Of a DNA stretch of 64,000 nt, positions 2,509 to 41,298 are shown piece after piece. Below the pieces are notes generated by a model, which did not search any database, was not told where the DNA came from, and saw nothing but the letters and a program-made list of their open reading frames with translations. Every line of letters begins with the position of its first letter. The first letter of the stretch is position 1. Both the position numbers and the translations under genes were made by a program. Source of the DNA: Alcaligenaceae bacterium (GTDB taxonomy: Bacteria > Pseudomonadota > Gammaproteobacteria > Burkholderiales > Burkholderiaceae_B); NCBI GenBank assembly GCA_013416395.1, contig JACCEP010000002.1, positions 682,001 through 746,000 on the forward strand, given 5' to 3'.

Positions 2509-2529
2509 CACATGTAGGCTTTGTAACAG

Positions 2530-5728: not shown

Positions 5729-5729
5729 A

Positions 5730-5769: not shown

Positions 5770-5804
5770 CTGCATTCAGATTGCTGTAAGAGACCCTACC
5801 TCAT

Positions 5805-5823
5805 AATAATGAGAATTAATTCT
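5805..5823 (+). promoter_or_regulatory. Putative Fur box upstream of ftrA
   Basis: The segment AATAATGAGAATTAATTCT matches about 12 of 19 positions of the classical Fur consensus and contains a perfect 12-base palindrome (AGAATTAATTCT). It sits 19 bases before the chosen ftrA start in front of an iron-uptake operon, which makes Fur control likely. Known Bordetella ftrABCD is Fur-regulated; here it is inferred. Confidence 0.6.
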
Positions 5824-5841
5824 ATTGTGGGGTGTGCGGGT

Positions 5842-6719: not shown

Positions 6720-6733
6720 CTGTACAGGTTGCT

Positions 6734-7582
6734 ATGGATCAGGTCGCATTTATCGTCTGGCGGGAAAGCGTAGAAGCCCTGCTGGTCGTTGGCATTCTTT
6801 ATACGTGGTTGCGGGCGAGTCCGCGAGGGCGCCGCGGGCTGCCGTGGCTGTGGGGCGGGGTATTTGCCGGTCTCGCGGTTGCGGGCATGCTTGCGCTGGT
6901 GTTGCTGGGCGTGGCTCAATGGCTGACCGACGAAGGGCAGGAGTGGTTTCAGGCCGGCATGGCGCTGGTCGCAGCCGTGCTGGTGGTGCAAATGGTGTAC
7001 TGGATGAAATGTCACGGTGCCAGCCTCAAGAAAACATTGCAGCATGGTGTTGATCACGAGATGGCGCGGGACAATTGGTGGGGTGTGTTTGCGCTTGTCG
7101 CCATTGCCGTAGCCCGCGAGGGCAGCGAAACCGTGGTGTTCCTTTATGGCACAGTGATGGCGGGCATAGCACGAGGCTCGGGCTGGGGCCTGGCCTTGGC
7201 AGGTGTGGTTGGTTTCCTGGCGGCATTGTTTTCCTTCTGGCTGTTGCAGCTTGGCGGCAAACTCATTACCTGGCGGCGCTTCTTTGCCTTTACCCAGGTG
7301 GTTCTGTTGTTGTTGGCAAGTTCGCTGTTAATTTCGGGCACCGATCACCTTATTTCGCTTGGGGTCATGCCCACGCTCATTGACCCCATATGGGACAGTT
7401 CGTGGCTGCTTGATACCACGGGGGGTATCGGCAAGGTGCTGGCCAGTTACGCGGGCTATCGTGCTTACCCGGCGTTGTCTCAAGTCGTGGTGTGGGTGCT
7501 CTACTGGCTGGTGGTCTGGTCTTTGCTCAGGCGAGCAGACCATGTCGCTACACGTACGAGGCTGGCCGCAAGGCTGGCTTGA
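6734..7582 (+). CDS. ftrC: High-affinity iron permease FtrC (FTR1 family)
   Basis: This 282-residue, seven-helix inner membrane protein belongs to the OFeT/FTR1 family. The two iron-passage motifs REXXE are present as RESVE (residues 10-14) and REGSE (residues 128-132). A histidine/lysine-rich cytoplasmic loop lies between them. The gene starts 14 bases after ftrB and ends four bases before ftrD. Within the operon it is the channel that moves iron delivered by FtrA/FtrB into the cytoplasm. Confidence 0.93.
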   Translation: MDQVAFIVWRESVEALLVVGILYTWLRASPRGRRGLPWLWGGVFAGLAVAGMLALVLLGVAQWLTDEGQEWFQAGMALVAAVLVVQMVYWMKCHGASLKKTLQHGVDHEMARDNWWGVFALVAIAVAREGSETVVFLYGTVMAGIARGSGWGLALAGVVGFLAALFSFWLLQLGGKLITWRRFFAFTQVVLLLLASSLLISGTDHLISLGVMPTLIDPIWDSSWLLDTTGGIGKVLASYAGYRAYPALSQVVVWVLYWLVVWSLLRRADHVATRTRLAARLA

Positions 7583-7586
7583 ATCC

Positions 7587-9005: not shown

Positions 9006-9124
9006 TTCAGGTTTCTGGTGACAGGCGTCGGTGGCTGCACGATCAGTGTTCTCCATGTTCAAGCTGCTTGAATAAGAGATCTGGTGCAAACCGAGTTTGC
9101 CACTGAAATAGAATAATCAGTGTA

Positions 9125-9172
9125 TTTATGTGATCTGCATCGTCAGGCAGAGTGAGATTCAATTCACATAAA
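9125..9172. terminator. Inverted repeat between convergent ftrD and GNAT genes
   Basis: A nine-base inverted repeat (TTTATGTGA at 9125-9133, TCACATAAA at 9164-9172) brackets a 30-base loop. A second short palindrome, ACCCATTTAATGGGT, follows at 9187-9201 and overlaps the stop codon of the minus-strand gene. One or both may end transcription of the two convergent genes; neither has a strong T-run. Confidence 0.3.
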
Positions 9173-9191
9173 GACTGTATGCGTCACCCAT

Positions 9192-10319
9192 TTAATGGGT
9201 GTTTTTAAAGGGAGCGTGCTGTTTCAGCGTGTCAATATATTGGCCGACCGCCGCACCTTCTTGATCCAGAAAATCAGCAATGGCGCGGGCGTAGCGCGGA
9301 TCGGCGATCCAGTGCGCAGAACAGGTTCTAACAGGCATAAGGCCTCGCGAGAGTTTGTGTTCACCCTGAGCCCCCCCTTCGAAAACCGATAGCCCATGGC
9401 TGATACAGTACTCAATGCCTTGCATATAGCAAGTCTCGAAGTGCAGCCCGGGTATATAGGTCATGCTGCCCCAGTAGCGCCCGTACAAGTGTGTCTGGTC
9501 TCGCAGGTTCAGCGCAGCGGCAACCGGTGTGCCTTGACGATGGGCGAGCACAATAACCAGGTTTTCAGCCATATGGGCGCGTAAATGCTCAAAGAACGCC
9601 AGGTTCAGATAGGGTGGGTTGCCGTGTTCGAGGTAGGTTTGTTCATAGCAGCGGTAGAAGAATTTTAGGCTGTCATCATCAATCGCGTCGCCGTTAAGCC
9701 AGGTAAATGAGATACCCGCCTGTATGGATTTCTTGCGGTCCTGATTGATTTTTTTTCGCTTTTGTTGGCTCAGGCTAGCGAGAAATTGAGCAAAGTCTTG
9801 GTATCCCTCGTTAAACCAATGAAATTGCACGTTCTCTCTCACCATGAACCCCGCCTCTTCGAGCGCGGCCTGATCAAGTGGGTGTGGAAACAGCACATGT
9901 AGCGAGGAAATGCCGTTTTGCTCCGTGAGCTGGATGGCTTGGCGAGCCAGGGCTACGCGATCCTGGTGTGTGGCGGCAAGCAGGCGTGGGCCGGGCACCG
10001 GCGTAAACGGAACGGCGCACAGCAGTTTCGGGTAATAATCGAGGCCGTGCTGGGCAAAAGCCTGGGCCCATCCGTGATCGAACACGTATTCGCCGCGCGA
10101 GTGCGACTTCAGATACAGCGGTATAGCGCCGACCAGCGCGCCATCTCGACGCATCAGCAAGTAGTGTGGTGCCCAGCCCGTGGGCCCTGCAGCGCAACCG
10201 GTCTGGTAAAGTCCTTGCAAATACGCATATTGCACAAAGGGCTGGCTGCCCGCCAGACGATTCCAATCGGAGGCGTCAAGTTCATCAAGGCGGTGTACAA
10301 GACTGAAAGTGGTGGTCAA
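9192..10319 (-). CDS. GNAT-fold protein of the COG3146 (FemAB-like) family
   Basis: This 375-residue cytoplasmic protein matches the DUF482/COG3146 family, which has a duplicated GNAT fold related to FemAB peptidyltransferases. Family landmarks seen are the early WNRLAGSQPFVQYAYL, the Arg/Lys run QQKRKKINQDRK, the FFYRCYEQTYLEHGNPPYL segment, and the late FEGGAQGEHKLSRGL with HYMQGIEYCI-like text before it. The substrate is unknown for the family. It is a single gene, convergent with ftrD and divergent from the CobW-like gene (134 bases apart). Confidence 0.82.
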   Translation of the reverse strand: MTTTFSLVHRLDELDASDWNRLAGSQPFVQYAYLQGLYQTGCAAGPTGWAPHYLLMRRDGALVGAIPLYLKSHSRGEYVFDHGWAQAFAQHGLDYYPKLLCAVPFTPVPGPRLLAATHQDRVALARQAIQLTEQNGISSLHVLFPHPLDQAALEEAGFMVRENVQFHWFNEGYQDFAQFLASLSQQKRKKINQDRKKSIQAGISFTWLNGDAIDDDSLKFFYRCYEQTYLEHGNPPYLNLAFFEHLRAHMAENLVIVLAHRQGTPVAAALNLRDQTHLYGRYWGSMTYIPGLHFETCYMQGIEYCISHGLSVFEGGAQGEHKLSRGLMPVRTCSAHWIADPRYARAIADFLDQEGAAVGQYIDTLKQHAPFKNTH

Positions 10320-10453
10320 TGTAGTGAGGCTCGTTTGTTGCTCTGGTGTGCTTGGCCAAAAGGTATGGCTTGTCTAGATGATAGCGTTTATCGTCCTGAG
10401 GCTGTTGGCGTTCATGGCGGGTCAGCTAAGCTTGGGCATAACGCGGAGCAAAT

Positions 10454-11410
10454 ATGAGCAAACGAATTCCTGTCACTGTTATCGCAGGTGGCCAGGGTAG
10501 CGGCAAGACTGCCGTTTTAAATGGCTGGAATGCCATTTCGGGGCTGAGCAATGTTGTCGTGCTGTCGCACAGCCTGGTAGGTATGGATTATCAGCGTGCG
10601 TATCAGGTCAATGAAGGCATTTATATTCACGAAGCGGGCTGTCTGTGCTGCGCGGTGCGGGGCGATCTGGTTCAGACGCTGCAGCGTTTGTTCATGGACG
10701 CCCTGCATCGCAAAATACCGAAGTTCTCGCGCATTGTCATCGAGGCGTCGGCGGGCGCCGACCCGGCCACATTCAAATATCTCGTAGAGTATGAGCGTTT
10801 TTTGGCAGATCGTTATGTGTATGCCGGCTGCCTGACGCTTGTTGACGTGACGCAGCGTCTGCCCGACACGCACGCGACAAGTGCGCTTGTTGCAAGCGGT
10901 CTGAGCTTTGGTCGGATGATAAAGGCGGCTGATGCCAATACAACAGCGAATACCGATGACAACGAGCGTGGCGATAAAAGCATCTACGCCACCGTTAAGA
11001 AGCGTGCGCACGCCTCTGGCGTCGAGGTGACCAGGGCTGTAATCGGGGCCCCAAGTATGAGCGCAGGCAGCGACGCAGGGAGGGGGGCAAGTAGCGAAAA
11101 AAGTAGCAACACAAGCAGCGACACAAGTAGCGATGCAAGTAGCGATGCAAACAACGTGGCAAGTGAGGCATCAAACGAGATGGCAAACAATGGCACAAAC
11201 GTGGATGCAATTAAGGACGCCGGTGCCGCAGCCAATGTGGCGTTGGCGCAGATACGAAGTGCTGATGTGCTTTTGTTGACTCATGCCGATCGGGTATCGT
11301 CTTGCCAGCTTTCCCGGGTGCGTAGCCTTTTGCGATCGCTTAACCCGGGTGCTGTTTGCCATACAGTGCAAACTTTACCCGGCCTGGTCAGCTTGTTCGA
11401 AGAGGGCTGA
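10454..11410 (+). CDS. Short CobW/COG0523-type GTPase with low-complexity insert
   Basis: The 318-residue protein has the COG0523 nucleotide-binding motif GGQGSGKT (residues 12-19) and the metal-binding CLCC motif (Cys63, 65, 66). EASAGADPATF replaces the common ETTGLADP. The NKxD guanine motif is degenerate (THAD near residue 277). Between about residues 195 and 255 lies a Ser/Thr/Asn/Asp/Ala-rich tract encoded by degenerate 12-base repeats (around 11090-11160). The C-terminal CobW_C domain found in typical members (total 320-400 residues) is absent. The family inserts or chaperones metals such as zinc or cobalt; no target gene is adjacent, so the metal is unknown. Confidence 0.75.
   Translation: MSKRIPVTVIAGGQGSGKTAVLNGWNAISGLSNVVVLSHSLVGMDYQRAYQVNEGIYIHEAGCLCCAVRGDLVQTLQRLFMDALHRKIPKFSRIVIEASAGADPATFKYLVEYERFLADRYVYAGCLTLVDVTQRLPDTHATSALVASGLSFGRMIKAADANTTANTDDNERGDKSIYATVKKRAHASGVEVTRAVIGAPSMSAGSDAGRGASSEKSSNTSSDTSSDASSDANNVASEASNEMANNGTNVDAIKDAGAAANVALAQIRSADVLLLTHADRVSSCQLSRVRSLLRSLNPGAVCHTVQTLPGLVSLFEEG
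11090..11165 (+). repeat. Degenerate 12-base repeats inside the CobW-like gene
   Basis: Units of the form AAGTAGCGATGC recur with small changes at least five times in frame, encoding SS-D-T/A steps. The period keeps the frame, so copy-number change would alter the length of the disordered insert without breaking the gene. Confidence 0.7.
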
Positions 11411-11960
11411 TCGGTTGCGCAGCAAACCCTGCTTGTCGTCTGCCCGCAACTTTTGACAGAGTTTAGTTGCAATGCAAGCCCTGTAGTGGTGTAATGAACG
11501 TATTCTGCCACCAGGCTGGGGCGCGTGCTTTGTCACGTAGCCTATTGTTAATTAAGTTTTCAACTAAACGATACGCATTCTATGCGCCTGCTGGCCGGCC
11601 CTTCAAGATCTGCTCTGGGGCCTTTGCTATAAAAACCGTACAAACTATAAGCCAGCGCTTTTCCATACGTGGGTGCCCCGTATATTAACGGGTATGCTCA
11701 AGCGGAGCAAAAGCACATGGAAAACAAATATTTCGCAGTAGTACCTCGCTTTTAGTACGCACCGCGCGTGCTTCGGCCCCAAGCTAGTGTGTTGGCCGCG
11801 AGGTGGGTTATTTATAAAAATGGGAACAATGTCTCATATCCCGAATGCATCCGTCGTGCCTTGCGCCCACCCCAAACTGAGGGTAGATGGTCGCGCACAC
11901 GTCATGCGTGCAGCACCTGCTTTTTTTGAACTTGGCAACAGCAATGCCAACCAAAACAAA
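11411..11960. other. Intergenic stretch with no recognised gene
   Basis: About 550 bases between the CobW-like gene and the tRNA terminator. I see no convincing open frame, no SRP, RNase P or tmRNA signature, and only small hairpins (for example CCCGT/ACGGG near 11673-11690). An AT-rich stretch around 11545-11580 could hold a promoter, but none is convincing. Confidence 0.5.
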
Positions 11961-11990
11961 AATGGGCCGATCAAGTTTGATCGGCCCATT
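11961..11990 (-). terminator. Rho-independent terminator of the tRNA gene
   Basis: A perfect 30-base palindrome with 14-base arms (11961-11974 and 11977-11990) is followed on the minus strand by TTTTTGTTTT. It lies eight bases past the CCA end of the initiator tRNA. This is a strong, clean terminator. Confidence 0.9.
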
Positions 11991-11998
11991 CGAAAAGC

Positions 11999-12075
11999 TG
12001 GTTGCGGGGACAGGATTCGAACCTGTGACCTTCGGGTTATGAGCCCGACGAGCTGCCAGACTGCTCCACCCCGCG
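11999..12075 (-). tRNA. Initiator tRNA-fMet (CAT)
   Basis: The minus-strand 77-mer folds as a tRNA with anticodon CAT and an encoded CCA end. Initiator hallmarks are present: the first base C is unpaired with A at the end of the acceptor stem, and the anticodon stem carries three G-C pairs (TCGGG/CCCGA). The T arm reads GGTTCGAATCC. It stands alone, with its own promoter and terminator, diverging from scpB. Confidence 0.96.
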
Positions 12076-12089
12076 TCTGGAAGAGAGCA

Positions 12090-12118
12090 ATATTAACCCA
12101 TACATTATTTTTATGCAA
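12090..12118 (-). promoter_or_regulatory. Promoter of the initiator tRNA gene
   Basis: On the minus strand TTGCAT (12118-12113) and TAATAT (12095-12090) are 17 bases apart, a good sigma-70 arrangement. The expected start is about 12083, a few bases before the mature tRNA 5' end at 12075. Confidence 0.75.
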
Positions 12119-12141
12119 GCCGTGACGGGCTCCAGGCTTTA

Positions 12142-13077
12142 ATGACGACTGAAACAGAGATTATCCGTGTGCTGGAAACTGCACTTTTGTGCGCCGACCA
12201 GCCCATGCCTACGTCAGAATTACGCAAACTTTTTACGATCGAAGATTTTTCTGCTGACGAACTACGCGGTTATCTGGCAATATTGCAGCAACAATGGAAA
12301 GACAGAGGGCTTGAGCTGGTTGCACTGGCCACCGGTTGGCGGTTTCAGAGCCGCCCTGAAATGCAGCGGTATCTTGGGCGTCTGAACCCCGAGAAACCCC
12401 CAAAATATTCCAGGGCCGTGCTCGAAACCCTGGCCATTATCGCCTGGCGTCAGCCTGTAACGCGGGGTGACATCGAAGACATTCGCGGTGTTACGGTATC
12501 GACGCAAATCGTGCGTACGCTTGAAGATCGTGGCTGGATAGAAGTGCTGGGTCATCGTGATGCGCCGGGTCGTCCCGCATTGCTGGGCACGACCAGGCAG
12601 TTTCTTGATGATCTCGGCTTGAAAACGCTCGACGAGCTGCCTGAACTCGAATCGCAGAATGCGGTGGCGGTTCTGGCAGGGCTTGATCTTGAAGAGGTGC
12701 CCTCAGAGGTCTTGGTTGCCCAAGACGTTTCTCAGGGCGAAAGTTCGATCACAGACGAGCAAGGCGCCGAGGGCGGTGACGTCTCGGATGAAGCCAAAAT
12801 TGAAAGTACTGAAAATGCAGGCATACCCGGTGCCACGCAAATGGATGACGAAGCAGTCGACGCCACAAGCGTCCGACTGCCTGACGAGGCCGGCGATGAG
12901 GCTTCCACTGTTCAAGCTGATGACGCTGCCAGTACGGTAGCCGTCGACGCTTCAAAAATGCCCATAGATTTGCATGGGTGGCGCAACAACAGTGAAAACC
13001 TGGGTCAAAAGCCTGTAACGACAATGAATGATTCTGACGAAAACGATTCGCCAGAAAATAAGATACACACGGAGTAG
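12142..13077 (+). CDS. scpB: Segregation and condensation protein ScpB
   Basis: ScpB is the winged-helix (kleisin-binding) subunit of the SMC-ScpAB condensin. Residues 1-165 hold the two winged-helix domains with the family text [29 protein letters not shown] and the late GRPALLGTT. The product is 311 residues because of an acidic, Ala/Asp/Glu-rich tail (about 190-311) not needed for the fold and probably disordered. No scpA lies next to it here, although the gene pairs with rluB as in other Burkholderiales. rluB starts 10 bases downstream. Confidence 0.92.
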
Positions 13078-13087
13078 TTAGAAATCT

Positions 13088-15043
13088 ATGACTGACACAA
13101 ACGAACAACACGACCTGCCGTTTAGCGACGTCGCGTCCACGCCCGAAGTCGGCGGCGACGGGAAGCCTGCAGCGCCGCGTGGGCGTGGGCGCAAGCTGCG
13201 CACACCCTTTCGCAGACGTAGGGGAGATGCCCAGGGCGAAGCGGCACCTGCAGCAGATGGCGTGGCAGCGCAGTCGGAATCTCCCTCCGTGCAGTCAGCT
13301 GAGGCAGCACCCGCAGCGGCGGCGACCAAGCCTGCTCGCGCGCCAAGACGTCGCAAGCCTACCCCTGATAAAGCCAAAGCGGCTGAGTCGGTAACCCCGT
13401 CGGCCACCCAGCCAGAGGCTGCTGAGGCGGCTGCGCAAGCGGGCGCAGCGAGCGATCGAGGCCGAAAGCGCGGAGGCCGACGCCCCGAGGGCGTTGCAGC
13501 CGACAAGCCGGGCAAGCGACAGCCACGGCGCACCGATCATGCCGAAAACGAAAAAGAAACTGAACAGGCGCTGGCTTATCTGCAAGATGTTCAGATGACA
13601 CAACGTTTGGGCAAATATCTGGGCAGTGATGCGCTCATGCCCAAGCTGCACAAGGTGTTGGCCGAAGCCGGTGTCGGTTCGCGCCGCGAGATGGAAGAGT
13701 TGATCATTGCAGGCCGTGTGTCGGTAAATGGTGAACCTGCCCACATTGGTCAACGGGTCGGGCCCAAAGATTTAGTGCGGGTCAACGGAAAACCCGTTGC
13801 TCGCCCCAATGCCAAAAAGCCTCCCCGTGTCATCCTTTATCACAAGCCTGCTGGAGAAATCGTCAGCCATGATGACCCAGAAGGTCGGGCTACGGTCTTT
13901 GCTCGCCTGCCCAAGATCAAGATCGGCAAATGGCTTTCGGTCGGGCGTCTTGACCTGAACACCGAGGGCTTGCTCATTCTGACGACATCGGGAGATCTGG
14001 CTAACCGCCTGATGCACCCACGTTATGGCGCTGAGCGTGAATACGCTGTACGTGTTCTGGGCGAGCTTGGCCCCGAACAGCAGGCCAGCCTGCTTAAAGG
14101 CATACAGCTTGAAGATGGCGTTGCCCAGTTTGGTTCCCTGGAGTTTCTTGGGGGTGAGGGCAGCAATCGTTGGCATCGTGTCACCTTGAATGAGGGGCGT
14201 AACCGTGAAGTGCGCCGCATGTTCGAGGCGGCAGGGGTTACGGTAAGCCGTCTGATACGCACGCGTTTTGGCGAGGTCGTATTGCCAAGCAATCTGCGCC
14301 GTGGTCGCTGGGAAGAGCTTGATCCTACGCTGGTTACAGCACTCATGTTGCAGCTTGGCCTATTGCGTGATGACGATGACGAAGAAGGCGCAGGTCATCG
14401 CGAGCGCCAGCCTCTGTCACACGACAGCGCCTTGCCTCCGGGTTATGGCACGCTGGAGCGCAACGGCACAAACGGTGCCAAAGTCAGTCGCCGAGGAACG
14501 CTTTCCGGTGGAAGAAAAATGGCGGGTACTCCAAACGAAGCCTACCCATCTGATCCATATGGAACAGGCATGATGTTTAGTGGTGGTCTGCCAAATGGGC
14601 ACCCTGATGCATCAGCCAAGTCTGCACGTCCAAAAAGCGGTGCACGTGGCAAGCCTCGCGGACCCAAGGGTGCTCAGGGAGGCCAAGGCGCTCAAGGTGG
14701 TCAGGGTGGTCAAGGTGGTCAAGGTGGTCAGGGCGCGCGTGGTGCTCGTGGAGCACGTGGGCCTGCCGAGCGCGGGCCACAAGAAGCGGGTGCTTCTGAG
14801 CATCGGCGTCGCGGGCCAGGCGCGCGTACCGCGAAAGGGCCGGGCACCAACAAGCCGGGGGCAGCCGGTGCAGCGGGTGCAGGCAACGCGACAGGTGCTC
14901 GCAAGCCTAGCAAGCCGCGTTCCGCTAACGCGTCGGCACGGCCGCCGCGTGCAGCCGGTGGAGCGCGTGGCGACGATTGGCAACCACGCAGCGCCACGGC
15001 GCACGAGTCTCATCTGGGCAAGCTGGGTAGCCGCAAGCGCTAA
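13088..15043 (+). CDS. rluB: 23S rRNA pseudouridine synthase RluB with long disordered tails
   Basis: RluB modifies U2605 of 23S rRNA in E. coli. The core (about residues 178-420) has an S4 domain ([20 protein letters not shown]) and the RsuA-family catalytic segment [13 protein letters not shown], whose Asp is the nucleophile. The product is 651 residues, about twice the E. coli length. The N-terminal 170 residues are Ala/Arg/Pro-rich, and the C-terminal 200 residues are Gly/Ala/Arg-rich with a run of Gly-x-y triplets (about 517-560). Such basic tails are common in Burkholderiales and probably bind RNA. The gene ends at a strong terminator. Confidence 0.92.
14674..14760 (+). repeat. Nine-base repeats encoding a Gly-x-y tract in rluB
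   Basis: Units like GGTGGTCAA/GGTGGTCAG are repeated in tandem, encoding GGQ and then GAR triplets, about 12 collagen-like steps in all. The period preserves the reading frame. Confidence 0.75.
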
Positions 15044-31795: not shown

Positions 31796-32551
31796 ATGGC
31801 TTCCCGACGCGGGCAGATGCTCGACGGTGTCCTGTTGCTGGACAAACCTGTAGGCCTGTCCAGCAATCACGCCCTTCAGCGCGCCAAACGCGCGCTGGAT
31901 GCACGCAAAGCAGGACACACAGGTACGCTCGATCCCTTTGCGACCGGGCTGCTGGTGTGCTGTCTTGGCCGTGCCACCAAAATCTCAAGCAAGATGCTTG
32001 AGGCTGATAAAACCTACGTGGCAACCGTGCAACTGGGCGAAGAAACCGACAGCGGCGATCTTACCGGCAATGTCGTGGCGACCACGCCTCCAGAGGCCAT
32101 AAACGTCAACGCCGAAACTTTCGAGGCGGCATTGGCGGCTTTCCGGGGTGAGATCGAGCAGATCCCGCCCATGTATTCTGCGCTCAAGCGAGATGGCAAG
32201 CCTTTGTATGAGTATGCGCGCCAGGGCATAGAACTTGAACGCGAGCCGAGAAAAATTTCTATTCACCGGCTCGACCTGCTGCGGTTTGAGGGTCTCGAGG
32301 CAGACATAGTCGTCGAGTGCAGCAAGGGCACATACATACGCACGCTCGCCCAAGACATTGGCCGAGCGCTGGGTTGTCATGCTCACCTCAAGGCATTGCG
32401 ACGTACCACCGTAGGGCCTTTTCGCCTCGATGATGCCGTCGCTCTGGAGGCCCTGCAGGCCATGCCCGACCCCAAAACCGTACTGATACCGCTGGACGCC
32501 TTGCCTGCAGGCCTGGCCCCCGCTTCTACCAAACAAGAGGAACCTTTATGA
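31796..32551 (+). CDS. truB: tRNA pseudouridine(55) synthase TruB
   Basis: TruB makes pseudouridine 55 in the T-loop of tRNAs. The 251-residue sequence contains [17 protein letters not shown] and the catalytic [14 protein letters not shown], whose Asp is the nucleophile; later motifs are [19 protein letters not shown] and [15 protein letters not shown]. The C-terminal PUA-like tail is short compared with E. coli (314 residues). The stop overlaps the typA start by four bases. Confidence 0.95.
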
Positions 32552-34365
32552 ATCGCGCATTGCGTAATGTGGCCATTATTGCCCACGTCGATCACGGCAA
32601 GACTACGCTTGTCGACCAGCTTCTGCGTCAGTCCGGCACTTTCCGCGACAACCAGCACATTTCTGAACGTGTTATGGACTCAGGCGATATCGAACGTGAG
32701 CGCGGTATTACCATTCTGTCGAAGAACTGTGCGGTCCAATACGAAGGCACGCATATCAACATCATCGACACCCCGGGGCACGCTGACTTCGGTGGTGAAG
32801 TCGAGCGAGTGCTGTCCATGGTTGACGGCGTTGTGCTGCTGGTTGATGCCGTAGAAGGGCCTATGCCGCAAACGCGTTTCGTGACACGCAAAGCACTGGC
32901 GCTGGGCCTCAAGCCCATCGTGGTGGTCAATAAAATTGACCGTCCGGGTGCACGCCCTGATTTCGTCGTCAATGCAACCTTTGATCTTTTCGACAAGCTT
33001 GGTGCAACCGAAGAACAGCTTGATTTTCCGGTTATCTATGCATCCGGCCTGGCTGGTTACGCCGGGCTGACCGATACTGTGCGCGAAGGCAACATGCGCC
33101 CTCTGTTCGACACCATTCTCAACTACGTACCCCAACGCGAAGATGATCCCGATGGTCCTCTGCAGATGCAGATTATTTCGCTTGATTACAGCTCGTACGT
33201 GGGCAAGATCGGTATTGGCCGTATTAATCGTGGCCGTCTCAGCCCTGGGCAAGATGTGGTGGGGCAGTTTGGTCCTGAAGCCAAGCCCTTTAAGGGCCGG
33301 GTCAACCAGGTGCTTAAGTTTCAAGGCCTCGAGCGTGTTCAGGTTGACGAAGCTTTGGCCGGCGATATTGTGCTGATTAATGGCTTGGAAGAAATCGGCA
33401 TTGGCTGCACGCTGATGGATCCAAACCACCCCGAAGCGCTGCCTATGCTGCGCATTGACGAACCTACCCTGTCCATGAACTTCATGGTCAATACATCGCC
33501 ACTGGCAGGTCGTGAGGGCAAGTACGTAACCAGCCGTCAACTGCGCGACCGTCTTGATCGCGAGCTCAAATCTAACGTGGCGCTACGTGTTAAAGACACA
33601 GACGATGACAAGGTGTTTGAAGTCAGCGGACGCGGCGAACTCCATCTGACGATTCTGATTGAAAACATGCGTCGCGAAGGCTACGAGCTGGCTGTTTCCC
33701 GCCCACGCGTTGTCTACAAAGAAGAAAATGGTGTCAAGCTTGAGCCTTACGAGCTGCTCACGGTAGACGTCGAAGACGGGCACCAGGGTGGTGTCATGGA
33801 AGAACTCGGCCGACGCAAGGGCGATCTGCTCGATATGGCTGCTGATGGTCGTGGGCGTACCCGTCTCGAGTACCGTATTCCTGCGCGTGGTCTTATCGGT
33901 TTTCAGGGTGAGTTCATGACGCTTACCCGCGGCACGGGGCTTATGAGTCACGTTTTCGACGATTACGCTCCTGTACGCGAAGGCGGCCTCGGCGAGCGTC
34001 GTAATGGCGTACTCATCAGCCAGGATAACGGCACGGCAGTGGCTTATGCATTATGGAAACTGCAAGAACGTGGCCGTATGTTTGTGTCACCGCAAGACCC
34101 TGTGTATGAAGGCATGATTATCGGTATCCATAGTCGTGAAAATGACTTGGTGGTTAACCCCATCAAAGAAAAGAAGCTGACGAACGTGCGCTCATCGGGT
34201 AAAGATGAGCACATTGACTTGGTCACACCTATACAGCTTACTTTGGAGTATGCCGTTGAGTTCATTTCAGATGATGAGCTGGTCGAAGTAACGCCCAAGT
34301 CTATGCGTCTGCGCAAGCGCTATCTGCAAGAGCATGAGCGTCGCCGCGCATCTCGCGAAGATTAG
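32548..34365 (+). CDS. typA: Ribosome-associated GTPase TypA/BipA
   Basis: TypA is an EF-G-like GTPase that acts on ribosomes under stress and in late 50S assembly. The 605-residue protein shows G1 [10 protein letters not shown]2/G3 with RERGITI and [11 protein letters not shown], and G4 NKID, followed by EF-G-like domains and the family-specific C-terminal domain ([10 protein letters not shown] near the end). It overlaps truB and is the last gene of the rimP operon, ending at a large structured terminator. Confidence 0.96.
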
Positions 34366-34416
34366 TAACATCGAGTTGTAGCAGGGCAGGCTGTTGCAAA
34401 ACGCCTGTCGTAGAAC

Positions 34417-34508
34417 AAAAAGCCATCCCGTGGCTATTGAGCGGTACCTGAGAGCTTGGATTGGTATCCGGCTTTTATGGTGCAGCTCACCACGGGATGG
34501 CTTTTTTA
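34417..34508. terminator. Bidirectional terminator between typA and the Slam-like gene
   Basis: A perfect 16-base stem (34417-34432 with 34490-34505) encloses a 57-base loop. T-runs flank it on both strands, so it can end both convergent transcripts. The loop contains its own hairpin (about 34453-34473), making this longer and more structured than a usual terminator. Confidence 0.8.
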
Positions 34509-34511
34509 GTA

Positions 34512-35948
34512 TTAAAAATACTTGTTTGCCTCGATAAATACCCGGCTCTTTTCAAGTGCAAACAATATGTCATTGCTGCGTACACGCTGGTGCGACCAGA
34601 TTAGCCTGGGCGTTAGCCCGCTATGATTGATGCGCTGATGCCAAAGCGACAGTGATATGCCGTGCAGCGTATCGCGTCTGCGCAAGCCCTGGCTGAACAA
34701 GGTCGGGCCGTCATACAGGCGGGTACCGGTAGTTGCAATAACAGCTGTACCTAGACCAGAAGGCCAGCGTCTTTCCCACTGTGCCCGCAAGCTGGCCTGA
34801 TGGAATCTGTCATTGCTGTCGCGTGTGCCTGTTTTGGCATAATACTCATGGCCAATCTGCCAGTAGTGGCCGGCGCCCAGCTGGTAGGCTAATGACAGGC
34901 CGGCCAGATAACTAGCGTGGTCAAGATGTTGACGCTCGCGATGACGCTGGTGACCATATTCTGCAGTTGCGCGTGTCTGCCATCGAGATGACCATGCCTC
35001 ATGCCATTGCACTTGTGCCCCTACGCTGTGCGCATAGGCGTGGCCCCCAAACCACCGATATTGTATGAAAGGGCTCAAGCTCAGCGATTTGCCCTGCCTG
35101 GCCACGCCTATGCCAGGAGCAAATCGGGTGGTGAAATAGCTATAACGTGAATGACGGGCGTATTGTCTACCTTCGGTAGTAATGCCTAGTGCGTAAAACG
35201 CGCCATGCGGCAACAGCCATTTTTTGTCGAGTGCTACCTGGTAACCCAAACCTCGATCCTGCAGTGGTGCGTCGAAGGTCCAGTTGCCCGCCCGCCGGAC
35301 TGTAGGCGCATTGTTGATGTTGTCTTCAGTTAGCAATTGCACTGCGGCATGAAACTGCCATTGCTCACGCTCCTGCAAACGCTGGTGCAGGCGGGCGTAC
35401 CGCTCCCGCAGCGCGCTCTCTAGTTCGGCGTTTTGCAGAAGATCCAGCTGTTCTGTTGCCGCCCTGTGTTGGTAGTTGTCGGCAAGGGTTTCGGCAAGCT
35501 GCATGCGTACGCCGTGCGCGTCGGGCACCTGAGCCAAAAGCTGAGCGTAATGCTGTACAGCGGTATTATGGCGACCTTGAAGGCGGGCCTGAATGGCTCT
35601 CGCGTACTCAAGCAAAACCGGGTCAGGGCTGGCAGATTTCTCGTACACAGGCAAAAGCACCACGATACCGGCCGTGTTGTCAGAGCGCATGGCAGACACC
35701 ATGGCGCGTCGCAACAGGTCTGGGTTTGCCAGCAGCGTCGCCTCGTCCACCTCTAGGACTGCGGTATCAATGTTGTGTGTAAGCCTTGCGGGTGCATCGT
35801 GTTCGAATCGGTATAGTGAGTTCGTTGAAGATAATTCTTCTGGCCAGGCAATGACTGGCGCCGGTAGTGGTTTGTCGTTGGCACGGGCGTGTGCTGTTAA
35901 CACTGCCAGGCATGCCATGGCCGCAAACTGGATAGCGAGGTTTTTCAT
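34512..35948 (-). CDS. Slam-type outer membrane lipoprotein exporter (DUF560)
   Basis: Slam proteins flip substrate lipoproteins such as TbpB or HpuA to the cell surface. The 478-residue product starts with a signal peptide (MKNLAIQF... ending near ARA), then a TPR-like helical part (about 80-190, with QGRHNTAVQHYAQLLAQVPDA-like repeats), then a DUF560 beta-barrel of about 290 residues ending in VFIEANKYF with an aromatic terminal residue. The start at 35948 is chosen for the signal peptide; another ATG is at 35966. It lies 52 bases downstream of the TonB receptor, the last gene of the cluster. Confidence 0.82.
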   Translation of the reverse strand: MKNLAIQFAAMACLAVLTAHARANDKPLPAPVIAWPEELSSTNSLYRFEHDAPARLTHNIDTAVLEVDEATLLANPDLLRRAMVSAMRSDNTAGIVVLLPVYEKSASPDPVLLEYARAIQARLQGRHNTAVQHYAQLLAQVPDAHGVRMQLAETLADNYQHRAATEQLDLLQNAELESALRERYARLHQRLQEREQWQFHAAVQLLTEDNINNAPTVRRAGNWTFDAPLQDRGLGYQVALDKKWLLPHGAFYALGITTEGRQYARHSRYSYFTTRFAPGIGVARQGKSLSLSPFIQYRWFGGHAYAHSVGAQVQWHEAWSSRWQTRATAEYGHQRHRERQHLDHASYLAGLSLAYQLGAGHYWQIGHEYYAKTGTRDSNDRFHQASLRAQWERRWPSGLGTAVIATTGTRLYDGPTLFSQGLRRRDTLHGISLSLWHQRINHSGLTPRLIWSHQRVRSNDILFALEKSRVFIEANKYF

Positions 35949-36000
35949 GTACGTTGGGCAGAGCATGGTGTCACTGTGTATTGGTTGTACGCCCCGCCCA

Positions 36001-38535
36001 TCAATACTTGATCTCCAGATTGAGGGTGTAATTGCGACCGGGTGCGGCAAGCGCCAGATAGTTGCTGCCCAGCACGCTGTTGCCGATAGGTTCGAACGTC
36101 GCCTGACGCGCCGACTCCCAGGTTACATAGCGGTAGTTGAAAAGGTTGTACACCCCCATGCGTAGCGTGACGTAGTTATTGAACCGGTAATGGCCGCTCA
36201 CGTCGGTTACCAGCCACTTGGGCGTCAGGATTGCCGTCTTGCGATCTCCAATATATTTCATGCCACCGGTTACCGACTCTTGGGTTAGCTCTGCGGGTTT
36301 TTTGGGGCCTGAATAGGTCGTTTTGATGGCCACCCCCCAGCCCTCGTTGGGTGCGATGTATTCTAGGCCGTAGACCACGCGCAGAGGCTGGAGCATGTCG
36401 AGGGCATAGCTGCTGGCGCTCTGGAAGTTGGGGTTGCGGGGCGAGACGCCGTCCTGTCGGACATGGCTGAGGGCCAGCATGGCCTGGAGCCCGTCTGGCA
36501 TACGCTGCCATATCTGGTGCAGATCAAGTTGGGTTTTTAGAGTAAAACCTTTTGTCTTTACCGACTGAAGGTTGTAATACATGATGTGGCCTTCAGGGTA
36601 GCCAAGCTCAGGCTTGGGTAGGCCAGTATCGATCAGGTGCTTGTAGTTGGCAAAAAAATAGCCGGCAGATGCCGTGCCGTAACGACTATCGGCATTGATG
36701 CCGAATTCATGGGTATGCGATTTTTCTGCTTTGAGCCAGGGCTGGGGTAAGCGCTCACCTCTTCGGTTAAACGACGGCCCAAGCATTTCGCCCGGCGTGG
36801 GTACGCGAAACCCACTGCTCGCCTTGTAGGCCAGGTCAATAGTATTGCTGAGCTTGTACACCAGCCCAAGATCCCACGAGTAATTGGTATAGGGCGTGTT
36901 CTGCAAGCCGGTTTTTCCTGACCAAACTGTGCTGCTCTGCATCGTGTCAAAGATGTTGTGCGCGGCACTGAAGGCATGACGGTCGTAACGACCACCCAGG
37001 CCGAGCGTCCATCTGTTGCCAAGTTCGACCGTGTCGTGAAATGCCAAGTAAAAATGGCGCCCTTTGATGGGACTGCCCTGGTATTGCTGCGTATAACTTG
37101 AAAAATGCTGCTTGATCACGCCATCTGCTGCATCGAGTTCGCTGTACGCGTGTTGGCTGATGTCGTAATCTGAAATGCGTGTTTTGCTGTGATCCACGCC
37201 GGCATTCAGGCGCAGTGTGTGTGGCTGGCCTAGTTGAAATGATTTGTTTGACACAACATCAATACGCGTAAGCATCTGCGTATAGTTTGTGCTTAGATGG
37301 TGGGTTCGGCTGCCTGTTTTGCCCAGAGTGCTTACGCAATTGGGGTCAGCGAGCGGGTAGGGCGAACAATTAAGGCTGCGAACGGCGCTATTAAGCCTAA
37401 TATGTTGCTTGTCTACACGCAGATGCAGGTTGTCTGCCCAGCTTTGCGCATCATGTGGAGTAAATCTGTATTCGGCACCCAGGCGTCGGTACGTATGCTG
37501 GTCTCGGTAGTATCTTGATGGCGTGTACTGAAACTCCGCCAGGTTGCCTGAGGGCCGGTAAATGCTGTCTTGTTCCATATTGGACCAGTAGTTGCGCCCG
37601 AACATGTCGCGTATGTCATAGTGTTGCACCGTCTGTTCAACAATTAGCCCGGCATAGTGTTGGGGCGCAACGTGGTAGCCAGCCCGGGAAAGCCACGAAT
37701 CGCTTTTGTATTTCATGGGGTTGGGTACTTTTCGATCGGGCCCCGAAATGTCTTTGGCCGAGAGCGTCTCAGACACCTGACCGTTGCCATCAAGGCGGTA
37801 CCTTTGGATTTCGCCACCCCCGTGGTGATAAATATCTTTGTGCGACCGTATTTCGTGGCCTTGTCTAAGGGTGCGTTGTATAAGGCCTTCAAACGGACCT
37901 GAGCGCCCACCTGCGCCCAGCGTTTGAGCCGTACGCCCGTCTTTTTCGCTGTAGGTGGTTTTGCTGGTAATGCCCCAGTTTCGTGCGCCATGAATAAAAT
38001 CATCGACCTCTTTGGTCTGCATGATGACAGCGCCCCCCAGCGCACCACTGCCGGCGAGCACCGAGCTGGAACCCTGAGACAGCACAACCGATTTCAGGTT
38101 TTCGAACTCGACCTCGTTCTGGGCGCCGCTGCTGCGCCCTTGGCCCGCGCCCAACATACCAAAACCTTGCCGTTGAAAGGTCTGCGCCTGCGCCATACCG
38201 TCTACGGTTACTGCCACCCGGTCTCTGTCAACGCCACGCATAGAAAAGCCACTTGATGTGCCACGCCCGCCTGATTCGTTGACGGCGATGCCCGGGTCGT
38301 AACGCAACAGATCGCGTATGCCGACAACTTGATCGTGAGCGATATCTTCATGCGTTTTCTGGGTTTTGCCCAGGCCGGTAACATCGTCGCCTTGCATGGC
38401 TTCACCTTGAACGGTAACGGTGTCCAGGGTTTGGATGCTTTTGCTTTTGTCGGCTGCAACGGCTAGCAATGGTGTGCCGGCAAGTGCGAGCAGGGCGAGC
38501 GAGGACCGGGTTGGGGACAGGCGAGGATGAGCCAT
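36001..38535 (-). CDS. TonB-dependent receptor, TbpA/LbpA/HpuB-like
   Basis: This 844-residue outer membrane receptor has a signal peptide (about 1-28), a plug domain with TonB-box-like LDTVTVQGE and GIAVNESGGRGTSSGFSMRGVDRDRVAVTVDG, and a 22-strand-type barrel. The segment GFRVPTPGEMLG and the C-terminal APGRNYTLNLEIKY strongly resemble the transferrin/lactoferrin/haemoglobin receptor branch rather than siderophore receptors. The barrel ends in aromatic Tyr. A lipoprotein gene lies upstream and a Slam gene downstream. The ligand cannot be read from sequence; it may be a host or environmental iron or haem protein. Confidence 0.85.
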   Translation of the reverse strand: MAHPRLSPTRSSLALLALAGTPLLAVAADKSKSIQTLDTVTVQGEAMQGDDVTGLGKTQKTHEDIAHDQVVGIRDLLRYDPGIAVNESGGRGTSSGFSMRGVDRDRVAVTVDGMAQAQTFQRQGFGMLGAGQGRSSGAQNEVEFENLKSVVLSQGSSSVLAGSGALGGAVIMQTKEVDDFIHGARNWGITSKTTYSEKDGRTAQTLGAGGRSGPFEGLIQRTLRQGHEIRSHKDIYHHGGGEIQRYRLDGNGQVSETLSAKDISGPDRKVPNPMKYKSDSWLSRAGYHVAPQHYAGLIVEQTVQHYDIRDMFGRNYWSNMEQDSIYRPSGNLAEFQYTPSRYYRDQHTYRRLGAEYRFTPHDAQSWADNLHLRVDKQHIRLNSAVRSLNCSPYPLADPNCVSTLGKTGSRTHHLSTNYTQMLTRIDVVSNKSFQLGQPHTLRLNAGVDHSKTRISDYDISQHAYSELDAADGVIKQHFSSYTQQYQGSPIKGRHFYLAFHDTVELGNRWTLGLGGRYDRHAFSAAHNIFDTMQSSTVWSGKTGLQNTPYTNYSWDLGLVYKLSNTIDLAYKASSGFRVPTPGEMLGPSFNRRGERLPQPWLKAEKSHTHEFGINADSRYGTASAGYFFANYKHLIDTGLPKPELGYPEGHIMYYNLQSVKTKGFTLKTQLDLHQIWQRMPDGLQAMLALSHVRQDGVSPRNPNFQSASSYALDMLQPLRVVYGLEYIAPNEGWGVAIKTTYSGPKKPAELTQESVTGGMKYIGDRKTAILTPKWLVTDVSGHYRFNNYVTLRMGVYNLFNYRYVTWESARQATFEPIGNSVLGSNYLALAAPGRNYTLNLEIKY

Positions 38536-38620
38536 GGTTGTATAAAGTATCTGAAAGAATTAATTCGTTACATTGGGTGTGATAGCTGCGCTAACCACGA
38601 TGTGTTCTTCAGTAAGCGAT

Positions 38621-40339
38621 TTAGGGGGTATGAGCAGCGGGCGGCACAATAATTTGTTGTTTGGCGCCAAACACGCCGCCGAAACTTTGGTCGTTATTGA
38701 CAAAATGCCCGGCCAGTTCGTTGGCGTGAGGCCCGAAGAATGCCCCTGAAACAGTGCTGCTGCCGGTGATTTTGGCGTCGGGCGAGATGCCAATTGCCTG
38801 CGGGTCGGCGGTAAGCCCACCTTTCATACTGGCAGTGCCTTCGAAGCGGTTGCCGACGATGGTGGCGGTGACATCGATTGCGTCAGCGCCCGATCGCCCT
38901 TGCAGGTTTCCAGAAAGTGTTCTGCTGGCAAAGTCTGCGGTGAATCGGGCTTCGTTCTCACTGCTGCGGGCGACATAAGCCTGGCCTTGTGGGGCTCGAC
39001 CAAATGCCATCCACCGGCCCTTGTAGCTGGCGGTTCCGGTAACTGGTACCTGATCGCGGGCCGTAAGATGGCCATGGGCGAAATAAAGCAGCGTAATGTC
39101 GTCGGCGTTGCCCGCCGTGCTGCTAAGCAGGCCTGTTTGCATAAACTGAAACCTGGGTTCAATGCAGCAGACTTCACCGTCTTGCGCAGCGACCTGTGTA
39201 AGGTCGAAGACTTCTCCCTTAAACTTGAGTGTTTTAATGTCGCCTGAGAACGGAATTGTATGAAGACCCTGGATTACGTTGGTGGCGGGCGCGTGTTCGG
39301 AGCCATCTGCCTGCAGCACGCTGGCATACGTGGTGGGTTCACCCTGAACAATATCGTTGGCTGTGGTTTGTCTGGCAGCAAATACCGCAACGGCGCGGCG
39401 TTGCTGCCCTTCGAGATGGCCGCCAAGTTCTGCGGCATTTGGGCCAAAAAAACTGCCGGACACTGAGGCCGATTCCTGGATGCTGCTGTAACTTTCGGGT
39501 GTGGCCGTGCCGCTAAAGCCAGCCCCGGAAATATCGGCTGTAATGGTGTAGCCCTGGCGCCGCTCACCATTATTTCCATGTAATGTGCCGCGCATTTTTC
39601 GGTCGGAAAAGTCTACGGTAAAGTTTGCATGGCTGGCATTGAGCAGGTTGCCGTTGTAGCCGTTGTTGGTGTCGTTGTACAGGGTTTCGAGAGCGCGCTC
39701 CCAGTAGCCGTCGTAGCTGGCCGTGCCCGATACAGGCATGGCCTCGGGGGGTTCTGACCCTTTGTAGAAAAGGTTGACCAGTGTTTTGTCGTAGCTGCCC
39801 TCACCGGCGATTTCTACAGCGCCGACTTTGGTGTACCTGAACGCCGCTACTTTGAGCAGGCTGCGATCATGTTCGATAAGTGTGTAATGACTGTCAGTAT
39901 TGCCGCTTACATATTCGCTGTAGTCGGCTGCGTTGGGGCGCGACTTCCACTCGTGGGGGTCAAGGCTTATGAGTGTGGCCTGAGCCGTATCACTGCCCGA
40001 TAGCGGGTAAGCATAGTACGCCAGGGTGTCAAAGCTTGGCGTTGTATCAATGGTGGCCCGCGACAGGTCGACGTGCTGGGCATCAAGGCTGGTGAGCACG
40101 ATAAAGGGCTCTGCCGCAGAAAACCCGTACACGTGCTGCTCAGGCGCCGGGCGCGTGAGGTCTTCAACAACCTTGTCTATTTCTTTGGGGCGATTTAGCT
40201 CCCACGTGTTGACTTCGATGGGAGGGGCTACTGGCTGGGTTTCGAAACTGCCACCAGTGGCGCACGCGGTGCAGAACACGACCGCGGACGAGCTTAGTGC
40301 AAGCCTGCAAGCAGATAATGGCATTGAATAACGGCTCAT
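38621..40339 (-). CDS. TbpB-like surface lipoprotein (two-lobed, Slam substrate candidate)
   Basis: The 572-residue product has a lipoprotein signal with CTAC ending at Cys26. It carries two copies of the TbpB barrel-domain ending: SGSFFGPNAAELGGHLEG (middle) and SGAFFGPHANELAGHFVN followed by SFGGVFGAKQ (C-terminal), each preceded by a calyx strand motif (MRGTLHGNNGER; LSGNLQGRSG). This two-lobed plan matches TbpB-type co-receptors. It is first in the cluster, 85 bases ahead of the receptor. Position -3 of the lipobox is Cys, which is unusual. Ligand unknown. Confidence 0.8.
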   Translation of the reverse strand: MSRYSMPLSACRLALSSSAVVFCTACATGGSFETQPVAPPIEVNTWELNRPKEIDKVVEDLTRPAPEQHVYGFSAAEPFIVLTSLDAQHVDLSRATIDTTPSFDTLAYYAYPLSGSDTAQATLISLDPHEWKSRPNAADYSEYVSGNTDSHYTLIEHDRSLLKVAAFRYTKVGAVEIAGEGSYDKTLVNLFYKGSEPPEAMPVSGTASYDGYWERALETLYNDTNNGYNGNLLNASHANFTVDFSDRKMRGTLHGNNGERRQGYTITADISGAGFSGTATPESYSSIQESASVSGSFFGPNAAELGGHLEGQQRRAVAVFAARQTTANDIVQGEPTTYASVLQADGSEHAPATNVIQGLHTIPFSGDIKTLKFKGEVFDLTQVAAQDGEVCCIEPRFQFMQTGLLSSTAGNADDITLLYFAHGHLTARDQVPVTGTASYKGRWMAFGRAPQGQAYVARSSENEARFTADFASRTLSGNLQGRSGADAIDVTATIVGNRFEGTASMKGGLTADPQAIGISPDAKITGSSTVSGAFFGPHANELAGHFVNNDQSFGGVFGAKQQIIVPPAAHTP

Positions 40340-40373
40340 TAAGATATTCAGTAAGTTGCAAGATATGCAATTT

Positions 40374-40397
40374 TAATGATATCGATAGTGATTCTTA
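40374..40397 (-). promoter_or_regulatory. Possible Fur box upstream of the TbpB-like gene
   Basis: Three adjacent hexamers GATATC, GATAGT and GATTCT (40378-40395) resemble the repeated NATAAT units recognised by Fur. It lies about 40 bases ahead of the lipoprotein start in an AT-rich gap, where an iron-controlled promoter is expected. Confidence 0.4.
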
Positions 40398-40503
40398 ATA
40401 ACCGTTGTCAATTCTACTTACAGGTTTCTGGCGTTCAAGCGCACACCAGCCAAGGGCAGAACGCGCGTGAGCAGGCGGTGTGCCCCCGGCAGCAAGATGC
40501 GGG

Positions 40504-41298
40504 TTACTGGAGTATGAAGGGCCGTCCTGTGACCGGTGTCGTGGCAACTGCCAGATCTTGCTCAGCCATGATGCCCGCTTCCCAGCCTTTACGGCCCGCC
40601 TCAATGGCCAATTTAAAGGCCTCAGCCATGAGGACCGGGTTATGGGAACGCGAGACGGCCGAATTCAACAGCACGGCATCAAAGCCTAGCTCCATGGCCT
40701 GGGCTGCATCCATGGGCGACCCGATGCCAGCATCGATGACGAGAGGTACATCGGGCAAGCGGTTGCGCAGGGTTTGCAGGGCGTACGGGTTTATAAGCCC
40801 TTGGCCCGATCCTATGGGGGCTCCCCATGGCATCAGAATGCGGCAACCTACATCGAGCAGGCGCTGACACGTGACCAGGTCATCGGTGCAGTAGGGAAAT
40901 ACCTCAAACCCTTCTTTTACGAGTTCTTCGGCGGCGCGCACCAGCTCGAATGGGTCTGGCTGCAGCGTGTACTCGTCACCAATCACCTCAAGCTTGAGCC
41001 ATGTCGTGTCGAACAGCTCTCGAGCCATATGGGCAAGCGCGATGGCTTCATTGGCGGTATGGCAGCCGGCAGTGTTGGGCAGCAAGTGGGCACCGCTTTG
41101 CTTGATCAGCCCATAGAAAGACTGGCCTCCCGCCTGTGTCGACACACCCTGTTGCGCCATCTGACGCTTGAGCGATACGGTAACGACCTGAGAGCCCGAT
41201 GCTTTGATGGCTTGTTCGAGAACCAATGGGGAAGGGTAGCCTGCGGTACCCAGAAAAAAACGGCTTTCCAGCTCGATGCCGGCAATAGACCACGGCAT
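40504..41298 (-). CDS. thiG: Thiazole synthase ThiG
   Basis: ThiG builds the thiazole phosphate of thiamine from DXP, glycine imine and ThiS-thiocarboxylate. The 264-residue TIM-barrel protein has the Schiff-base Lys102 in WLKLEVIGDEYTLQPDP, with LPNTAGCHTANEAI before it and PVIDAGIG-like and MELGFDAVLLNSAV after it, where the phosphate is bound. It follows thiS by five bases. DXP for the reaction is made by Dxs, also in this window. Confidence 0.95.
   Translation of the reverse strand: MPWSIAGIELESRFFLGTAGYPSPLVLEQAIKASGSQVVTVSLKRQMAQQGVSTQAGGQSFYGLIKQSGAHLLPNTAGCHTANEAIALAHMARELFDTTWLKLEVIGDEYTLQPDPFELVRAAEELVKEGFEVFPYCTDDLVTCQRLLDVGCRILMPWGAPIGSGQGLINPYALQTLRNRLPDVPLVIDAGIGSPMDAAQAMELGFDAVLLNSAVSRSHNPVLMAEAFKLAIEAGRKGWEAGIMAEQDLAVATTPVTGRPFILQ

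Follow-up and report, generated by a model that had tools for sequence, protein, structure and literature searches.

The TbpB-TbpA systems of Neisseria, Haemophilus, Moraxella and Actinobacillus pair a two-lobed surface lipoprotein with a TbpA-family TonB-dependent receptor that carries an iron motif in its plug; they have a partner Slam and are under iron control. The LbpB-LbpA pair is of the same family and plan, and haemophilin (HphA) and HpuAB likewise join a Slam-linked barrel protein to a TonB receptor, with haem as the ligand. In solved TbpB it is the N-lobe that contacts transferrin, the EIEYE motif in the plug of TbpA is needed for the use of transferrin iron, and deletion of the helix in loop 3 disables TbpA (PMC6965322, from excerpts). 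Key binding residues of these barrel proteins lie in the loops and the handle (PMC7857515, from excerpts). Why transferrin receptors for avian hosts have been found only in the Pasteurellaceae is a question posed in a 2023 review (PMC9853020). Here we describe a tbpB-tbpA-slam operon in a 64,000-nucleotide stretch of DNA, called the window below, from an Alcaligenaceae bacterium (assembly GCA_013416395.1, contig JACCEP010000002.1, positions 682,001 to 746,000; genome of 5.08 Mb in 45 contigs), one of three genomes of the genus Allopusillimonas that carry it.

Our preferred reading, to which we give a probability of about 0.56, is that the operon, controlled by Fur and with its lipoprotein displayed by Slam, steals Fe3+ from a transferrin that is not mammalian and is most likely of the avian or sauropsid kind (ovotransferrin). 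On iron starvation Fur would release the operon and Slam would carry the lipoprotein out to the cell surface. The N-lobe of the lipoprotein would catch iron-loaded transferrin and hand it over to the receptor, which would pull out Fe3+, hold it briefly at the plug motif and import it with TonB. The locus differs from the TbpB-TbpA of the four genera above in that it belongs to a separate, well-supported clade (clade I below), whose members have shorter receptor loops 2 and 3 (the loop numbers are our own), fewer Cys pairs in the loops and slam directly downstream, and in that its N-lobe handle is not homologous to theirs by profile.

The operon and its control region

Three same-strand genes (window 40339-34512, minus strand) encode, in this order, the lipoprotein, the TonB receptor and Slam. 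A reading made earlier from the letters and open reading frames (the sequence-only reading) had proposed a TbpB-like lipoprotein, a TbpA-like receptor and a Slam exporter in one operon, and searches of Pfam, NCBIfam and the PDB agree with it. The lipoprotein has two TbpB_B_D barrels (Pfam E 7e-50) and scores 151.8 bits against the NCBIfam model slam_lipo (cut-off 80); Cys26 of its lipobox VFCTAC is invariant across 11 aligned rows, and its best solved relatives by PDB sequence search are TbpB. Structure prediction, which had been suggested as a check, led to the same fold: the AlphaFold model, of mean predicted local distance difference test score (pLDDT) 65.9, has TbpB as its best Foldseek match in the PDB (E 7e-25, template-modelling (TM) score 0.50). 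No result that the sequence-only reading had named as a refutation was obtained, although the handles gave no match to the Pfam handle families TbpB_A and TbpB_C.

The receptor scores 686.4 bits against TIGR01776, the model for transferrin and lactoferrin receptors (cut-off 468.8), compared with 1247 and 1311 bits for two receptors of the TbpA/LbpA type. TbpA provides its best solved relatives by PDB sequence search and also the best Foldseek match of its AlphaFold model (mean pLDDT 64.5; E 3e-54, TM 0.72). A counterpart of the EIEYE motif is present in the plug. The pattern [ED]xE[YF]E[ND] was found in 30 of the 31 receptors tested, among them 13 of 13 of clade I, and in none of five other TonB receptors, three of which come from other Slam modules of the window genome; the receptor of genome G1411 lacks it. 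The third protein had been assigned to DUF560, and it does belong there (SlipAM/DUF560 PF04575, 234 bits, E 2.5e-69), with an N-terminal TPR_Slam domain (PF24575, 107 bits); a PDB sequence search gave it TPR repeats only and no solved relative. The candidate cargo for this Slam is the adjoining lipoprotein, which matches slam_lipo.

A possible Fur box had also been noted, and a Fur-like site is found in the same place in all three Allopusillimonas genomes. Scored against a Fur consensus, the site of the window (14/19) ranks in the top two of the whole 64 kb, and when the upstream sequence was shuffled base by base 500 times, two of the shuffles reached its score. The corresponding sites lie 44 bp from the start in A. 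ginsengisoli (15/19; 1/500 shuffles) and 50 bp from it in A. soli (14/19; 0/500). Outside the genus the score was reached by 3 of 500 shuffles in Volucribacter, 4 in Psychrobacter strain I-STPA6b and 7 in P. pygoscelis, the sites of the two Psychrobacter being 206-226 bp upstream; the number of such shuffles was 24 in G755 and 31 in G1154, but 97 in Avibacterium and 270 in G017. The sigma-70-like match that overlaps the site of the window (40398-40370, 9/12) is of a kind whose count is not above chance. Taken together, the sequence comparisons indicate that the operon is a real, selected and probably iron-controlled TbpBA-Slam system.

A separate receptor clade

At E of at most 1e-60 the receptor family was detected in five of 268 genomes of the window's family and 53 of 140 of that of Avibacterium, at 1e-80 in seven of 399 of the window's order and seven of 398 in a sample of the phylum, and at 1e-100 in four of 348 of the family of Psychrobacter and 20 of 83 of family f44 (that of genome G115), which appears to be the Neisseriaceae; in several genomes only part of the first-look candidates was scored for these counts. 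A named scan by two short patterns gave 15 loci. In a tree of 33 receptors, 14 form clade I (support 100/99), which returns with 12 rows in the lipoprotein tree (100/100) and with 12 in the Slam tree (100/99), L116 and L117 being outside the latter two. Besides the three Allopusillimonas, the clade holds P. pygoscelis and Psychrobacter strain I-STPA6b, Avibacterium gallinarum and three genomes 95.7-96.9% identical to it, Volucribacter psittacicida and G797, G1154 of family f44, G755, and a second member of the window's family, G017, which is 60.5% identical to Volucribacter. The other side of the tree consists of 16 TbpA/LbpA-type receptors, four of them with named holders (two Haemophilus, Moraxella oculi and Bisgaardia) that we take to be mammal-associated, and it is therefore labelled the mammal side. 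Placing Allopusillimonas with the mammal side was rejected (approximately unbiased test, p-AU 6.4e-5, for a group chosen after the tree had been seen). As drawn, Allopusillimonas is the first branch within clade I. The near-identical copy of L048 in H. seminalis (L052) was dropped from the later trees.

The search for the cluster in related genomes that the sequence-only reading had suggested found the order tbpB-tbpA-slam at every one of the 14 clade I loci. On the mammal side it occurs with three of the 16 receptors; in two cases slam comes first, in three it is divergent and in eight there is none in the stretch fetched. A. gallinarum has the gene order of the window and belongs to the same clade, at 37-38% identity in the receptor and 29-30% in the lipoprotein and with a handle that gives no single match. 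In P. pygoscelis (L053), again of the same order and clade, identity is 39-42% and 32-33% respectively and loops 2 and 3 are longer; its N-lobe handle does match singly (see below).

Clade I puts a receptor of this kind in a Psychrobacter from a penguin, and related receptors in one genome of family f44 and in two genera of the family to which the window belongs. The question raised in the 2023 review thus becomes testable gene by gene. The available main texts of the 2017 and 2021 surveys of Slam and the type XI secretion system (T11SS), and of a 2025 survey of cargo, contain neither 'Alcaligen' nor 'Betaproteobacteria'; literature searches, which covered titles, starts of abstracts and excerpts, found no paper on clade I; and among the papers on Allopusillimonas that were returned none was on iron by title or start of abstract.

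Three receptors of the family stand apart from both sides. L121 (G1189) and L122 (G1183) form a third branch of short TbpA-family receptors (open frames of 848 and 842 aa), each adjoining a protein with a single TbpB barrel (419 and 478 aa). L144 (G1411, 5813-12493) holds a lone, long-branched receptor of the TbpA family that lacks the plug motif; its gene is divergent from that of a TbpB-type protein with two barrels and TbpB_C, and Slam is downstream. Split or broken copies of receptor or lipoprotein, found in Avibacterium endocarditidis (L049), Aggregatibacter and a metagenome-assembled genome of Conchiformibius (L051, L054 and L056), were left out of the counts.

The N-lobe handle and the likely ligand

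The part of the lipoprotein that sets clade I apart is the one expected to face the ligand, since the barrels match across both sides (hhalign at least 99) and the N-lobe handle matches within clade I only. Eleven of the 14 clade I lipoproteins were scanned with Pfam (L043, L116 and L117 being outside these runs). TbpB_A was over its cut-off in none of the 11, that of the window included, against five of five of the mammal side, and TbpB_C in none of the 11 against four of five. Across 11 whole genomes, nine of them clade I holders, TbpB_A was nowhere over cut-off (one match at E 0.06). For profile comparison the handle core was taken as window residues 70-199 and the anchor peptide was excluded; with it included the probability was 89.7 and the match came from the first ~50 residues. 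The core of the three Allopusillimonas rows aligned with that of the other nine clade I rows at probability 96.9 (E 1.4e-10, 124 columns), with the two Psychrobacter rows at 95.6 and with the remaining seven at 95.9, compared with 3.4 for the 12 rows of the mammal side. Against these same 12 rows the nine other clade I rows gave 0.7 and Psychrobacter alone 7.5. Column-shuffled controls reached at most 6.5 in 50 draws, random 3-versus-9 splits of the mammal side gave at least 97.6 in 20 of 20, and handles cut without a joint alignment gave 97.6, 96.9 and 95.9 against 2.4-5.6. By profile, then, Allopusillimonas shares the clade I N-handle domain as a group match. Taken singly, the handles of P. 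pygoscelis (95.8), G1154 (85.3), I-STPA6b (85.2) and G755 (77.0) also matched Allopusillimonas. The handle of the C-lobe falls between barrels and N-lobe handle in this respect and is uneven within clade I: the two Psychrobacter rows scored 5.9 against the other seven and 31.8 against Allopusillimonas, and Allopusillimonas scored 83 against the mammal side.

The receptor differs in its loops. On the mammal side the loop-2 region has 109-190 residues; in clade I it is short, with 80-84 residues or, in Psychrobacter, 106. Of the 13 clade I rows, 12 have a single pair of loop Cys and the remaining one, G755, has two, compared with two or three on the mammal side. The idea that the TbpA helix finger, which lies in loop 3, is deleted was dropped: the large missing piece is in loop 2 and loop 3 is merely shorter, and a finger may or may not be present.

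The named members of clade I outside Allopusillimonas belong to Avibacterium, Volucribacter and Psychrobacter. Going by the title of the reference, P. pygoscelis comes from a penguin. A. gallinarum and A. endocarditidis occur in poultry according to the parts of the sources available, and in similarly partial text the dominant groups of the upper tracts of budgerigars include Volucribacter as well as Pasteurellaceae, Neisseriaceae and Alcaligenaceae. Specific receptors give Avibacterium (Haemophilus) paragallinarum the use of iron from ovotransferrin (1992 work, as cited in PMC9853020), and its TbpA/TbpB, known to us from a citation, were described in 2009; this species is not a named row of our trees. 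Each of four Avibacterium-like genomes (G316, G682, G685, in which six of nine candidates were scored, and G687) gave a single family match at E of at most 1e-60, of clade I, and the receptor of A. paragallinarum is for that reason most likely of clade I as well. The sources in birds and this placing together suggest that the ligand in Allopusillimonas may be of the ovotransferrin kind. The sequence-only reading had expected a new ligand. The N-lobe handle is indeed unlike those of 12 TbpB/LbpB-type lipoproteins; as the same handle is common to bacteria of birds, a non-mammalian transferrin seems likelier than a new class of protein.

Several observations weigh against our preferred reading, of which the ligand is the weakest step. 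The receptor is only 37-42% identical, and the lipoprotein only 30-34%, to those of named clade I members from other genera. The single handles of Avibacterium, G685, Volucribacter, G797 and G017 score only 2-6 against Allopusillimonas. No homology was detected between the N-lobe handle and that of solved TbpB, and the model of the handle lacks confidence at its start. In the plug motif of the window Phe replaces Tyr (EVEFE). Loop 3, home of the helix finger in TbpA, has 53 residues (53-75 in clade I, 62-177 on the mammal side), and at its tip (residues 312-334) pLDDT is below 50 and no helix of four residues or more is modelled. The link to birds consists of three species in the tree (A. gallinarum, V. 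psittacicida and P. pygoscelis) and the broken copy of A. endocarditidis, and a human report is also listed for A. gallinarum in the part of the source available. A. soli KCTC 22455 is listed as coming from farm soil (PMC12783916).

It is conceivable, if rather unlikely in our estimate, that the machine is the same and its ligand some other transferrin-like protein present in soil (of worm, insect or amphibian) or an iron protein of bacteria or algae. The soil source of A. soli would fit such a ligand, as would the first branching of Allopusillimonas, which could thus have a ligand of its own, and an N-handle that averages 21% identity to the other clade I rows. Because the handles of Avibacterium and Volucribacter miss singly, some weight was shifted slightly from ovotransferrin to this alternative. 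Compared with the other clade I rows as a group, however, the handle still belongs to a single domain family; the purifying selection on the genes shows no sign of a switch; and T11SS subcluster 1A, to which the Slam of the window may belong, is found almost entirely in association with animals (PMC8406197, from excerpts).

A wider reading, which we hold only tentatively and consider doubtful as a whole, is that clade I is a lineage of receptors for sauropsid transferrin, as old as the split between receptors for birds and reptiles and those for mammals. Its three-gene cassette would have moved through the Pasteurellaceae, the Moraxellaceae, family f44 and the window's family, and Allopusillimonas would be linked to birds or reptiles, or live on egg, carcass or guano matter, and steal ovotransferrin iron. 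If our preferred reading, theft from a non-mammalian transferrin, is true, gear for host-iron piracy is present in a genus known from soil. The clade I handle, joined by none of the profiles used here to the solved TbpB type, also offers a natural contrast for the study of transferrin choice.

Genome history and other features

The operon lies in a slot between bipA and thiG in the window genome, in A. soli KCTC 22455 (G003) and in A. ginsengisoli SBSA (G004), which are three of the five genus members compared. In the sister genome G001 the slot retains a slam remnant of 106 residues (L041 4319-4636; 46% identity, E 1e-24), from which we conclude that the operon was lost there, and in G002 it is occupied by an unrelated TonB receptor. 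Between the window and A. ginsengisoli the ratio of non-synonymous to synonymous substitution (dN/dS) is 0.14-0.20 for the genes of the operon and 0.02-0.03 for the flanks; the operon genes are under purifying selection. Synonymous divergence (dS) is 0.26 for tbpB and 0.31 for tbpA, well below that of thiG (0.69) and bipA (0.78), which suggests that tbpBA has been exchanged between species. The sequence-only reading had placed the operon in an ordinary chromosome with polyhydroxybutyrate and nitrous oxide genes, and phaC, nosZ and a NosR-like protein (a name read from its domains) are present in the surroundings. A recent foreign island was considered and rejected: the GC content of the three genes, overall and at third codon positions, is close to that of the flanks, and the sole tRNA of the window is at 12 kb. 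The stretch 34300-40600 gave no long direct repeats, its longest family being of 30 nt at 73%. A plasmid search returned only Neisseria gonorrhoeae (two records) and one Prevotella record, all below 60% identity, and a scan of viral contigs confirmed nothing.

The loss in G001, the replacement in G002, the absence from two of the five genus members and a dN/dS above that of the flanks would be expected of a relic from a host-living ancestor that is no longer important in soil. We regard this as improbable, given three intact genes under purifying selection, the conserved Fur-like site and the apparent continued exchange of tbpBA.

Capture of haem or haemoglobin, in the manner of HpuAB or haemophilin, seems to us equally improbable. 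The sequence-only reading had left open an iron-protein or a haem-protein system. A weak match of the lipoprotein to HpuA, below cut-off, and the related barrels of haemophilin in the fold search point towards haem. The receptor, by contrast, is well over the cut-off of TIGR01776 and under that of the haem/haemoglobin model TIGR01785 (206.3 against 316.85), the plug motif for Fe3+ is kept where the other TonB receptors examined lack it, and a separate haemophilin-type module (HphA_N and HphA_C) is present elsewhere in the genome. The iron-protein half of that proposal agrees with the families, motifs, gene order, selection and conserved Fur-like site, and the haem half was given up. A lactoferrin receptor (LbpBA) is very improbable, although TIGR01776 covers transferrin and lactoferrin receptors alike: the lipoprotein of the window has no acidic C-lobe insert, the LbpB-like row that has one (L027) goes with a receptor of the other clade, and lactoferrin is mammalian (PMC9853020). 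The receptor models, the plug motif, the clade and the missing insert led us to reject both haem capture and LbpBA.

Table 1. Features of the operon and its borders, in window coordinates
Feature	Position	Strand	Basis
TbpB-type two-lobed surface lipoprotein (572 aa)	38621..40339	-	TbpB_B_D x2; slam_lipo; PDB TbpB by sequence and fold
Lipoprotein signal peptide up to lipobox Cys26 (VFCTAC)	40262..40339	-	11-row alignment
Anchor peptide and N-lobe handle, clade-specific (residues 27-199)	39743..40261	-	no TbpB_A match; hhalign of core 70-199
N-lobe beta barrel (residues 200-325)	39365..39742	-	TbpB_B_D; hhalign at least 99 to both sides
C-lobe handle (residues 326-429)	39053..39364	-	no Pfam TbpB_C match; hhalign 98 to other clade I, 83 to mammal side
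C-lobe beta barrel (residues 430-562)	38654..39052	-	TbpB_B_D; hhalign
TbpA-family TonB-dependent receptor (844 aa)	36001..38535	-	TIGR01776 686 bits; PDB TbpA by sequence and fold
EVEFE, iron motif of the plug (residues 141-145), corresponding to EIEYE	38101..38115	-	motif comparison
Slam, T11SS outer-membrane protein (478 aa)	34512..35948	-	SlipAM and TPR_Slam
Fur-like site, 44 bp upstream of lipoprotein start	40384..40402	-	14/19 to Fur consensus; overlaps sigma-70-like match
Inverted repeat (17 bp, perfect) separating slam from bipA, probably a terminator for both directions	34417..34506		fold -46.5 kcal/mol, z -6.4
Flanking gene bipA/typA, bordering the slot and outside the system	32548..34365	+	synteny with G001-G004
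Flanking gene thiG, bordering the slot and outside the system	40504..41298	-	synteny with G001, G003, G004

The window also encodes an FTR1-type iron permease at 6671-7582, at a distance of ~27 kb from the operon. In the whole genome there are five SlipAM hits. A second T11SS module (L135, C9:47000-61000, at 1214-7661) consists of a sigma-factor-like gene and an STN-type TonB receptor, both named by eye, followed by haemophilin and Slam, the cargo being a non-lipidated-looking protein with HphA_N and HphA_C. In a further module (L136, C1:36000-51000, at 7152-13661, minus strand) a TonB receptor and Slam accompany a small, secreted-looking FHBP_C protein, and at L031 (C42:42000-58000, at 6569-12794, minus strand) they accompany another small, secreted-looking protein, which corresponds to half a TbpB_B_D barrel, under the cut-off.

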